Source: Flavisolibacter longurius
Lineage (GTDB): Bacteria > Bacteroidota > Bacteroidia > Chitinophagales > Chitinophagaceae
Direction of reading: 5' to 3'
Assembly: GCA_014163555.1 (NCBI GenBank)
Contig: JACJGO010000003.1
Span: 62,001-126,000 of the forward strand
Length of the DNA: 64,000 nt
In this document: piece after piece, positions 21,208-48,820 of the stretch
Layout of the letters: every line of letters begins with the position of its first letter
How positions within the stretch are numbered: position 1 is the stretch's first letter
Notes under the pieces: model-generated
Database searches by the model: none
What the model saw: only the letters and a program-made list of their open reading frames with translations
Told to the model about the DNA's origin: nothing
Translations under genes and position numbers: made by a program

Positions 21208-21657
21208 ATGCCAGTTAAAATCCGGTTACAAAGACACGGGTCAAAGAAAAGACCCTTCTACTTCATTGTCGTTGCAGACGCAAGAGCTCCCCGCGATGGT
21301 AAGTTCATTCAGAAATTAGGTACCTACAACCCCCAAACGCAGCCTGCCACCATTCAGTTGGATCGTCAGCGTGCACTGGACTGGTTAGGCAAAGGCGCCC
21401 AACCTACAGATACCGTTCGGAAGATTTTATCGTACAAGGGTGTGTTGTACCTGAAGCACCTGCTTCGTGGTGTATCACTGGGCTTGTTTGATGAAGCAAC
21501 CGCAATGACGAAATTCCAGACATGGCACACTGAGCATGAAGCGCAGATCCGTCGTCGTCAGGAAGAAGCTCAACGGGAAAGAAGAGCCAGAAGAAACCCT
21601 ACTTACCAGCGCCGCGAAAGAAGACCGGCTCCAGGTGGTGCGGAATCCGAAGGATAA
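21208..21657 (+). CDS. rpsP: 30S ribosomal protein S16
   Basis: This 149-residue S16 protein of the small ribosomal subunit begins [18 protein letters not shown], the nearly invariant start of the family. The core covers about residues 1-85, with [19 protein letters not shown] and the [19 protein letters not shown] segment. As usual in Bacteroidota, the C-terminus is extended by a charged tail of Arg and Glu (about 60 residues), longer than the approximately 80-90-residue proteins of E. coli and Bacillus. It is transcribed away from rimM from a good promoter, and followed by a GC-rich terminator. Confidence 0.95.
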
Positions 21658-21684: not shown

Positions 21685-21716
21685 AAGTCCTCCGCCTTGG
21701 GCGGGGGACTTTTTTT
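21685..21716 (+). terminator. Terminator after rpsP
   Basis: AAGTCCtCCGCC pairs with GGCGGgGGACTT around a TTG loop and is followed by seven T. It is 27 bp after the rpsP stop codon and ends where the left arm of the repeat element begins. Confidence 0.75.
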
Positions 21717-21962
21717 GGCCCATGTCCCCCGGTGGGGGCACTTAGGCCGTTGTTTCATTTTCTTGGCAACATTTCCTACAGCAAAATGATTTTTATTGCT
21801 GTATAGAATTACCAGCCGCACAAGTGTGCGACGCAACGGATGCCAAATAGCAGTTCTTCCGCTTAGTACAAAAAAAGAAAAATGCCTGTTGTTGAAACAG
21901 GCATTTTTTATTGTAAGAAAAGTGTCATCGACCTAAGTTCCCCACCGGGGGACAGGGGGCCG
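21717..21962. repeat. Inverted-repeat element, copy 1, between rpsP and ffh
   Basis: Arms at 21717-21749 and 21929-21962 are imperfect reverse complements of about 33 bp (core TGTCCCCCGGTGGGG and ACTTAGG). The right arm touches the ffh stop codon. Inside are CAAGTGTGCGACGCAACGG (21821-21839), GCTTAGTAC and a bidirectional terminator hairpin. The reverse complement matches the element at 29335-29627 in the same order. Confidence 0.8.
21878..21909. terminator. Bidirectional terminator shared by rpsP and ffh
   Basis: AAAAATGCCTGTT (21878-21890) pairs with AACAGGCATTTTT (21896-21908). Each strand ends in a T-run, so it can stop transcription from both sides of this convergent junction. Confidence 0.75.
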
Positions 21963-23294
21963 TTATTTTTTCATCCCCGGCATACCTGGCATCATCCGGC
22001 CCATCGGCATCTTGTTCATCATCTTCATCATCTCCCGCATTTGTTCAAACTGCTTCATAAAAGCATTCACCTCACTGATATCCTTACCCGAACCTTTGGC
22101 AATGCGCTTACGGCGGCTGCCATTTATTTCATCGGGATTGGCCCGTTCGAAGGGCGTCATGGAGTTGATAATGGCTTCCACACCTTTAAAGGCATCGTCG
22201 CTGATATCAATGTCTTTCATCGCCTTGCCCACACCGGGAATCATGGCCATCAGGTCTTTAAGATTACCCATGCGCTTGATCTGCTCCAATTGCTGCTTAA
22301 AATCGGCAAAGTCAAACTGGTTCTTGCGGATCTTTTTTTCCAGCTTTTTGGCCTGCTCTTCGTCAAACTGGGCCTGCGCTTTTTCTACCAGGGTGGTAAT
22401 GTCACCCATGCCCAGGATACGCTGTGCCATCCGCTCGGGATAAAACACATCCAGCGTATCCATTTTTTCGCCGCTGCTGATAAACTTGATGGGTTTATCA
22501 ACCGTGTATTTAATGGAAAGAGCAGCTCCGCCGCGGGTATCACCATCCAGTTTGGTCAAAACCACGCCGCTGAAATCAAGGCGGTCATTAAAGGCTTTAG
22601 CGGTGTTTACCGCATCCTGGCCAGTCATGCTGTCCACCACAAACAGGATCTCGTTGGGATTTACAGCAGATTTTATGTTGGCTACCTCCGTCATCATCGC
22701 CTCGTCAATGGCCAGGCGACCGGCGGTATCAATAATGACTACGTTTTTGTTTTTGCCGCGGGCATCGCGAATGGCATTCTGTGCAATCTCCACCGGGTTT
22801 TTGTTTTCCAGCTCGATGTGGACATCCACACCAATCTGCTCACCCAGCACCCGCAACTGCTCCATGGCCGCAGGACGGTACACGTCAGCCGCCACCAGGA
22901 TGGGCGAAAGTTTCTTTTGTTTCTTGAGGTAATTGGCCAGTTTGGCACTGAAGGTGGTTTTACCAGAACCTTGCAGACCTGCAATGAGGATCACGGCCGG
23001 GGTACCTTTGGCATTGAACTCGGCGGCTTCGTTGCCCATCAACTCCACCAGTTCGTCCTTTACAATCTTTACCATCAACTGGCTGGGAGAGATAGCGTTG
23101 ATTACCTTTTCCCCGGTGGCCTTGTCTTTTACCTTATCGGTGAATTCCTTGGCAATTTTATAGTTTACGTCGGCATCCACCAGGGCCCGGCGAATTTCTT
23201 TTACAGTGGTGGCAACATTCAATTCGGTAATGCGGCCTTCGCCTTTGAGGTTTTTAAAGGCACCTTCTAATCTATCCTGCAATGAATCGAACAT
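21963..23294 (-). CDS. ffh: Signal recognition particle protein Ffh (SRP54)
   Basis: Ffh is the GTPase of the signal recognition particle. With 4.5S RNA it binds signal sequences on the ribosome and delivers them to FtsY. The N domain helical bundle begins MFDSLQDRLEGAFKNLKG. In the G domain the P-loop GLQGSGKTT, DTAGR and TKLDGD are clear. The M domain (about residues 300-443) is Met-rich and ends MMKMMNKMPMGRMMPGMPGM, the signal-binding part. Length (443 aa) is normal. It lies downstream of the primary sigma gene, with a hairpin in its leader. Confidence 0.96.
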   Translation of the reverse strand: MFDSLQDRLEGAFKNLKGEGRITELNVATTVKEIRRALVDADVNYKIAKEFTDKVKDKATGEKVINAISPSQLMVKIVKDELVELMGNEAAEFNAKGTPAVILIAGLQGSGKTTFSAKLANYLKKQKKLSPILVAADVYRPAAMEQLRVLGEQIGVDVHIELENKNPVEIAQNAIRDARGKNKNVVIIDTAGRLAIDEAMMTEVANIKSAVNPNEILFVVDSMTGQDAVNTAKAFNDRLDFSGVVLTKLDGDTRGGAALSIKYTVDKPIKFISSGEKMDTLDVFYPERMAQRILGMGDITTLVEKAQAQFDEEQAKKLEKKIRKNQFDFADFKQQLEQIKRMGNLKDLMAMIPGVGKAMKDIDISDDAFKGVEAIINSMTPFERANPDEINGSRRKRIAKGSGKDISEVNAFMKQFEQMREMMKMMNKMPMGRMMPGMPGMKK

Positions 23295-28698: not shown

Positions 28699-29337
28699 AT
28701 GAGTTTACGTTTAGGCGATACAGCCCCCAATTTCCGGGCACAAACTACCGAAGGCGAAATTGATTTTCACGAATTTCTCGGTAATGGCTGGGGTGTTCTG
28801 TTTTCACATCCTGCCGACTACACACCGGTTTGCACCACCGAGTTGGGCCGCACGGCGCAACTGAAAGAAGAATTTGCCAAACGCGGTGTAAAAGTGCTGG
28901 CAGTTAGCGTTGACCCGCTGGACAAACATTTTGGCTGGCGCAACGACATCAACGAAACCCAGAATTGCAATGTTGACTTTCCCATCATTGCGGATGAAAG
29001 CAGGGATGTGGCCACGCTTTACGATATGATCCATCCCAACGCATCGGCTACGGCTACAGTGCGTTCGCTGTTTGTGATCGGGCCCGACAAGACCATCAAA
29101 CTGATGATCACGTATCCTGCTTCTACCGGACGTAATTTCAACGAAGTGTTGCGTGTAATCGATTCGCTGCAACTAACGTCGAAGCATAGCCTGGCAACGC
29201 CTGCCGATTGGAAGCAGGGCGAAGATGCCATCGTAGTGCCGGCTGTTTCTACCGAAGATGCGATGAAGAAGTTCCCGAAAGGTGTAAAGGTGATCAAGCC
29301 TTACCTGCGCTATACACCGGTGCCGGACCAGGAGTAA
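28699..29337 (+). CDS. Peroxiredoxin, Prx6-like (1-Cys type)
   Basis: This thiol peroxidase reduces hydrogen peroxide and alkyl hydroperoxides in the cytoplasm. The peroxidatic Cys lies in the family motif SHPADYTPVCTTELG (about residue 46), with a supporting Arg in ATVRSLFVIGPDK (about 126). At 212 residues with a long C-terminal domain it fits the Prx6 class. It follows the OsmC gene closely. Its stop codon TAA (29335-29337) lies inside the left arm of a repeat element that fills the spacer to the next gene. Confidence 0.9.
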   Translation: MSLRLGDTAPNFRAQTTEGEIDFHEFLGNGWGVLFSHPADYTPVCTTELGRTAQLKEEFAKRGVKVLAVSVDPLDKHFGWRNDINETQNCNVDFPIIADESRDVATLYDMIHPNASATATVRSLFVIGPDKTIKLMITYPASTGRNFNEVLRVIDSLQLTSKHSLATPADWKQGEDAIVVPAVSTEDAMKKFPKGVKVIKPYLRYTPVPDQE

Positions 29338-29627
29338 TTTCCCCTGTTCCCCTGAAGGAGAGACTTAGGCCGGTCAGACTCTTTAGTCTTCAATCAGAGA
29401 TTTGGCAATAACTTTTATGCAATAAAAAATGCCTGCGTTTAGAATGCAGGCATTTTTCTTTTTATGTACTAAGCAGAGGTGCTACTATGAATCTTCCGTT
29501 GCGTCGCACACTTCTACGTTCGGTATCGCTACTCAACAAAACAACAAAACCATTCTGCTTTCTGAAAAGCTGAACGTGCAAAAGCCTCACCGATCTAAGT
29601 CTCTCCTTCAGGGGGACAGGGGGATTA
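29335..29627. repeat. Inverted-repeat element, copy 2, between peroxiredoxin and RluA genes
   Basis: Arms at 29335-29373 and 29590-29627 are reverse complements of about 38 bp with few mismatches (core CCCCTGAAGGAGAGACTTAG). Each arm includes the TAA stop of the adjacent gene, so the element fills the whole convergent spacer. Inside are a bidirectional terminator and TCCGTTGCGTCGCACACTT (29495-29513). Copy 1 at 21717-21962 has the same parts in reverse order. Confidence 0.82.
29424..29457. terminator. Bidirectional terminator between peroxiredoxin and RluA genes
   Basis: AAAAAATGCCTGC (29424-29436) pairs with GCAGGCATTTTT (29446-29457), with T-runs on both strands. It is nearly identical to the hairpin at 21878-21909. 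Confidence 0.75.
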
Positions 29628-48627: not shown

Positions 48628-48820
48628 TGAACAGCAGAACAGACGAACAAGGAGCAAAGGAAAAGTGAAGCAAAGATCGGAGAGTGGCGAATAGAATTAC
48701 CTTACGTACAAGTGTGCGACGCAACAAAAGTTGAATAGTAGCACCCGAGTTGACAAACAAAAAAAGAAGCTTCAAGTGAAAAGCGATCGGCTTGCAGCTT
48801 GCAGCTAACAGCTAATAGCT
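48628..48820. repeat. nuoG/nuoH spacer: element fragment plus AGCT-type words
   Basis: GTACAAGTGTGCGACGCAAC (48706-48725), then GTTGAATAGTAGCACC, matches the core of the elements at 21717-21962 and 29335-29627, but without arms or hairpin. TTGCAGCTTGCAGCTAACAG (48790-48809) is a tandem AGCT-type run next to nuoH. At the left, GAACAGCAGAACAGACGAAC is a loose repeat. Confidence 0.65.

Follow-up and report, generated by a model that had tools for sequence, protein, structure and literature searches.

Our analyses have identified a module of about 245 bp between the convergent genes rpsP and ffh (positions 21717–21961, read directly), which is probably a MITE-like element that carries a terminator as a passenger and has a second dispersed repeat nested within it. 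This module, referred to here as copy 1, is one of two in the window (the whole stretch of 64,000 nucleotides that was analysed), where an arm model trained partly on the window's own arms finds exactly four arms, two per copy, with E-values of 5e-11 to 3e-8 (Table 1). The left arm of copy 1 (model match 21716–21751, E 5e-9) directly adjoins the T-run of the terminator of rpsP, a gene with orthologues in 27 of 29 relatives, and the right arm reads GGCCCCCTGTCCCCCGGTGGGG-AACTTAGGTC on the minus strand. The initial annotation had described inverted arms of about 33 bp, which are confirmed at both ends of the module, and had placed the right arm at the ffh stop codon (21963–21965), to which it is adjacent with one base in between. 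The T-run end of the core unit lies at 21876 and its central motif, CAAGTGTGCGACGCAACGG, at 21821–21839; the core model matches 21790–21886 with an E-value of 1.5e-26, its training set including in part copy 1 itself. Copy 2 (29338–29624) consists of the same parts, with its core on the plus strand and its arms of type B, which agrees with the copy annotated near 29335–29627 in the opposite orientation; its left arm starts immediately 3' of the stop codon of a peroxiredoxin-like gene ending at 29337. The third core of the window has a counterpart in the close congener G380 (L051/L357).

Table 1. Positions of the module copies, their neighbouring genes and the armless core in the window.
Feature	Positions	Strand	Basis
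rpsP (ribosomal protein S16-type), left neighbour of copy 1	21208–21657	+	ORF
rpsP intrinsic terminator, outside the copy 1 module	21685–21711	+	terminator scan
Copy 1 left arm, type A, GGCCCATGTCCCCCGGTGGGGGCACTTAGGCCG	21717–21749	+	read directly
Copy 1 core unit, second repeat family	21796–21876	-	core model and borders from the 359-copy profile
Copy 1 bidirectional hairpin terminator (predicted), 13-bp stem, 5-nt loop	21878–21908	both	terminator scan (minus), folding
Copy 1 right arm, type A	21930–21961	-	read directly; model match 21927–21961, E 5e-11
ffh, right neighbour, convergent	21963–23294	-	ORF
Copy 2 left arm, type B	29338–29372	+	read directly, arm model
Copy 2 bidirectional hairpin terminator (predicted)	29425–29457	both	sequence, folding
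Copy 2 core unit	29459–29539	+	core model match 29449–29545, E 1.9e-25
Copy 2 right arm, type B	29590–29624	-	abuts stop codon at 29625
Third core of the window, without arms	48684–48771	-	core model, E 2.6e-19

The hairpin of copy 1, with the stem strands AAAAATGCCTGTT (21878–21890) and AACAGGCATTTTT (21896–21908), folds on both strands at -15 to -18 kcal/mol. The initial annotation took it to terminate transcription from both sides, and the two sides fare differently. The minus-strand side is called by the terminator scan as a terminator with a long T-tract, and the hairpin with TTTTTCTTTTTTT is the sole terminator that the scan finds on the ffh side; the plus-strand side has T6 only, mostly within the stem, and rpsP possesses a separate terminator of its own ahead of the module, so that copy 1 adds little there. 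Judged from its sequence, it is plausible that the hairpin terminates both strands, more weakly on the rpsP side. In most arm modules the hairpin has a stem of about 10 bp or more and both strands fold, and paired stem changes keep it intact (viz. GCATGT/ACATGC in L004 and GCCCG/CGGGC in L016). The usual bidirectional intrinsic terminators between convergent genes likewise have a G+C hairpin with an A-tract before and a T-tract after it, but the module hairpin differs from them in being carried by a dispersed repeat.

When copy 1 is used as a DNA query it yields 74 matches in its own 5.66-Mb genome, the better ones with about 72–83% identity over up to 200 bp, and these matches resolve into two separate repeats, the arms and the core. 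The arm model, which was built from 43 arms, counts 62 of them in the genome of the window, 60 in G380, between 14 and 127 in each of G373, G375, G004, G381, G377, G378 and G379, 10 in G382, 3 in G372 and a single one in G104; it finds none in two genomes of other genera, and within the sample searched the arm family is confined to the genus of the window. At least 20 modules can be read with both arms in the window's genome, and the 19 paired-arm copies that were tabulated are non-coding and 217–357 bp long. Neighbouring arms less than 3 kb apart are convergent in 29 cases versus 2 divergent ones. The two arms of a copy are of identical type in 21 of 21 copies (chance about 7e-7 if the arms were independent), which points to pairwise exchange or a joint origin. 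Convergent junctions hold 13 of 20 modules (11 according to the caller, plus L001 and L003, reassigned by eye because of caller error), versus 27 of 186 neighbouring gene pairs (14.5%; P about 4e-7, binomial), and none of the 20 is divergent by eye, L015 having been called divergent and read as co-directional. Many copies have an arm that starts 0–2 bp from a stop codon. Target-site duplication is absent around the module, the flanks of 20 copies having a match length of 3.50 versus 3.47 between unrelated copies. The search for further copies that the initial annotation proposed yields many in the genome and its relatives, those in the genome mostly at convergent junctions; these numbers, and the congener junctions that lack the module, bear out its claim of a repeated, mobile or re-forming end-of-gene module, and the opposing notion that only these copies exist fails.

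Comparison with congeners indicates that the modules are dynamic, as seen from empty sites, swapped interiors, an inversion and a mosaic. The rpsP–ffh junction holds the module in the window's genome and in G380 (a true orthologue of copy 1, 96% identical over 197 bp) and none in G373, and in G381 and G377 arm modules without the core stand behind rpsP; at a second junction a few bases in G375 correspond to about 285 bp in the window's genome. When cores were matched to G380 via their flanking genes, ten junctions with a module here had no matched core in G380, and those read hold mostly plain sequence or other dyad families. L013, L015 and others are empty sites in G380, and three of the ten junctions (L008, L011 and L022) carry arms of the same family around a different interior, the interior having been swapped between conserved arms in L008 versus L438 and L022 versus L429. 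At several junctions the two species carry unlike subfamilies, such as type B in the window's genome where G380 has type A. The arm module L028/L331 has an orthologous interior (88%, above any paralogue) that is reversed relative to both flanking genes; this represents an in-place inversion, and it is the sole solid case, two further junctions of opposite orientation holding non-orthologous copies. The G380 copy L321 is a mosaic, in which the right half is 96% identical to its orthologue here and the left half only 68%, this left half being 93% identical to another G380 copy. The six cores listed on contig C4 of G380 match, in order, six cores on C32 of the window's genome (four of the places lie in aligned stretches, the other two being inferred from order or flank matching), and this common order implies that many insertions predate that split. 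At the orthologous junctions L435, L441, L427 and L426, congeners have other dyad families, viz. GCAGAGAA dyads, GATTTGTAGGATT arms and CCTCACCCCGGCC arms. Several module families thus seem to take turns in occupying the intergenic regions.

The core was described by the initial annotation as a conserved component of the module, but it does not belong to one fixed module: it is a non-palindromic repeat of about 80 bp, separate from the arms and more widely spread, and many of its copies lack these arms. The window's genome has 57 copies at E<0.001 and one congener at least 150; a core 16-mer with up to one mismatch has 46 matches in the genome versus 0 for its reversed control, and the repetition of the core is far beyond chance. 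Among 117 genomes of the family, the Chitinophagaceae, 73 carry the core, and exact matches to the 16-mer number 0 to 1,377 per genome (the reversed control giving 0 in every genome), and genomes of other families of the order have a single exact match. Most named genomes with core matches belong to the Chitinophagaceae (viz. Foetidibacter, Limnovirga, Flavisolibacter, Niastella, Hydrotalea, Segetibacter and others), and the distribution is patchy within the genus, with 28 exact matches in the window's genome, 122 in G004 and none in G104. An alignment of 359 copies puts the ends of the unit at about -39 and +41 relative to the motif TTGCGTCGCACwCTTGTrCG, with a T-run at its start and near-invariant positions in a central motif of 15–20 bp. 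The same alignment gives no meaningful RNA consensus fold (three pairs, -0.18 kcal/mol), no covariation and no pairing of the two halves with each other, the last of which speaks informally against an integron attC site. Core copies are mostly intergenic, no target-site duplication was found around them, and the matches listed for the complete genome G004 (71 plus, 79 minus) show no clear trend by strand or origin. Close pairs in dense genomes are convergent (tail to tail) in 34 of 36 cases, divergent in 2 and tandem in none.

Some core copies retain both ends but have a hairpin or a different insert in place of the middle. Such copies (L363 at G000:C5:40118-40251, L364 at G380:C7, L366–L374 in G375, L378 and L381) carry long hairpins or inserts of the CTGACGAAGGAAGG type, and their left and right ends resemble direct repeats of each other. 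Across 23 orthologous core pairs, identity is 322 of 345 bases (93%) at the central 15 positions and about 70% in the flanks, a contrast that is no more than suggestive, as the pairs were found partly by the motif itself; on this pattern the motif could be bound by something, or the copies could be refreshed by exchange. A short peptide gene was rejected as an account of the core on an informal reading, the frames differing among copies and second codon positions varying. Core pairs were likewise rejected as the ends of gene cassettes, the longer '+-' intervals in dense genomes holding ordinary genes (queA and an ABC ATPase, as we take them to be).

These observations are best accommodated by the MITE-like module with a passenger terminator and a nested repeat. 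Copy 1 belongs to a family of miniature inverted repeats, non-coding and restricted to the genus in the sample searched, that settles behind gene ends, chiefly convergent ones, with one copy of the family-wide core of about 80 bp inside it. The module's hairpin is predicted to stop transcription from both sides, which would make the module harmless or mildly useful at such places; termination may be the reason why it is tolerated behind genes, and it may benefit the host. Modules are gained and lost between species and copies trade parts, as seen in the interior swaps, the mosaic and the single arm type per copy, and new copies may arise through a trans-acting enzyme, through recombination or template switching between repeats, or through both. 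Recombination or template switching between copies would account for the inversion, the mosaic and the swaps, and leaves first insertions unexplained. A classical MITE, derived from a single insertion sequence, non-autonomous, and dependent on that element's transposase to recognise the arms as terminal inverted repeats, would also be short and non-coding with inverted arms of about 33 bp, dozens of copies and clean absence from orthologous junctions. The unrelated interiors and even cargo genes within arms are unlike a simple deletion derivative, however, and no transposase was found in the three long arm pairs read, no arms were found beside the Y1 genes checked, and 20 copies are without target-site duplication. 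Some mobile families make no such duplication, so that this last point only lowers the case for MITE membership, and on balance we regard a classical MITE as possible but doubtful.

It is quite improbable that the repeats are of the REP/REPIN type, moved by a RAYT (Y1, HUH) transposase. The inverted dimers of the core in dense genomes and the absence of target duplication, as in IS200/IS605 elements, are in keeping with such an origin, but the core has neither a conserved hairpin nor covariation, and the core-bearing genomes G052, G037 and G328 have no Y1 gene. At the four Y1 loci of the window's own genome the core model gives nothing significant (best E 0.18), no arm lies within 1.5 kb of 34 Y1 loci, and the Y1 loci of other genomes, some of them core-dense, have cores scattered in their vicinity that form no consistent pair on either side. 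The Y1 transposases read in the window's genome and in G380 sit inside double-hairpin inverted repeats of their own, not inside arms or cores. A Y1/RAYT transposase was rejected as the mobiliser on the Y1-free core genomes and the lack of a link with arms or core at the Y1 loci checked. Convergent selection for terminators, with no mobile DNA and the likeness arising from function, agrees with the bias for convergent junctions and the compensatory stem changes; this reading is highly improbable, as the homology of arms, spacers and core goes well past the needs of a terminator, and congeners have or lack entire modules at a given junction. Homology outside the hairpin and this presence or absence at orthologous junctions largely refute it. 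For the core itself, a family-wide site for protein binding, uptake or recombination, akin to a DNA uptake sequence and spread by biased recombination and not by transposition, would fit the near-invariant motif within the longer unit, the copy numbers, which in some genomes run from hundreds to about 1,400, and the retention of the motif in orthologous pairs, with the bias stated above; it is unlikely in view of conservation across the whole unit of about 80 bp, the mostly intergenic location, the range from 0 to 122 exact matches within one genus, and the lack of any match in the plasmid and phage collections that were searched. DNA uptake sequences are about 10–12 bp long and often lie in coding DNA. 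We also raise, as a reading that is rather unlikely, that the core is an undescribed genome-wide class of element, viz. a non-palindromic intergenic unit of about 80 bp with halves like direct repeats around a replaceable middle, which in some Chitinophagaceae has reached a density of up to one copy per 4 kb, and that it drives, together with several arm families, the exchange of whole intergenic regions between species.

The closest known systems each share some of the properties of the MITE-like module and its core. Small inversions of hairpin-flanked spacers are found in chloroplast genomes, and there too the segment enclosed by inverted arms 3' of genes changes its orientation without moving; the present case differs in its bacterial chromosome, its longer arms and spacer, the swapping of its interior and its one solid example. 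We know of no sequence relation between the module and Correia/NEMIS, RUP, ERIC or YPAL. Correia/NEMIS of Neisseria and the MITEs RUP, ERIC and YPAL are short, non-coding elements with inverted arms that lie beside genes (in part after PMC3733652), and the module resembles them in these features and in its predicted capacity to act on transcripts; unlike them it has no target duplication, its interiors are exchangeable, a second repeat lies inside it and its arms abut stop codons. REP/REPIN and 'TIRtron' repeats go with tyrosine transposases (PMC3733652); the core is like them in its high copy number, intergenic location, inverted dimers and lack of target duplication, and unlike REP/REPIN in that it has no tagged hairpin (GTAG or CGTC), that none of the Y1 genes checked lies between core pairs or arms, and that some genomes with the core have no Y1 gene. 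Rickettsia palindromic elements are inserted in frame in genes (PMC3733652), and in this genus translation can similarly run through an arm to form the end of a protein (UvrC and tryptophan 2,3-dioxygenase), but the two differ in sequence, in the paired arms and in the predicted internal terminator. In anatomy the module comes nearest to MITEs that have terminator activity, and the core dimers resemble REPIN organisation. Of the features that define MITEs and REPINs, target duplication and the hairpin tag are absent, and no transposase turned up in the arm pairs and Y1 loci read. Rfam has no match over the gathering score at the module, and the open literature, with subscription papers outside the search, has no paper on the core motif or on such repeats in Chitinophagaceae. 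No name was found for either repeat, the core family being the more surprising of the two.

If the preferred reading is right, the intergenic spaces of Chitinophagaceae would not be slowly drifting filler, and a small set of interchangeable repeat modules would replace them again and again; these modules would bring their own stop signals, would sometimes rewrite protein ends, and would help explain misannotated gene ends in these genomes. The presence of up to about 1,400 core copies per genome with no known mobiliser is a directly attackable problem, because congeners with more than 100, with dozens and with almost no copies exist side by side.

Several further observations were made in the course of these analyses. 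Downstream of uvrC (L011, L433 and L437), about 60 bp (GGGCTGGATAGAAATCCTGCCCCGTTTTAAAATCCAATATCCTATGAAAAACCGAGG) are nearly identical in three species, with no Rfam family over threshold. The repeats flanking Y1 genes (L077 1337-2043, L483 1314-2051) are double hairpins of about 50 bp, AAGCCC..GGGCTT plus ACCGG..CCGGT; they form a different family from the arms and are also intergenic elsewhere. No core match was found in plasmid and phage collections, and two viral-contig records from IMG/VR (L255 and L256) have core copies and may derive from a prophage or from the host. At L011 (about 1486-1772), L470 and L303 (2225-2269) arms are translated and form the ends of proteins: UvrC ends in ...HFEGEGPLSPSGET, the tryptophan 2,3-dioxygenase of G380 starts with ...LSSPTGGQGA..., and RimM of G377 behaves likewise. 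Longer arm pairs are rare and occur in congeners; the three that were read enclose proteins of 128 aa and 201 aa and, in one case, an ordinary gene, with a transposase in none of them. In L465 (G380:C2:135901-136673) and L466 (G377:C13:14703-15514) the arms stand 740–780 bp apart around small cargo genes, whose products are by eye of membrane type (128 aa) and lipoprotein-like (201 aa).
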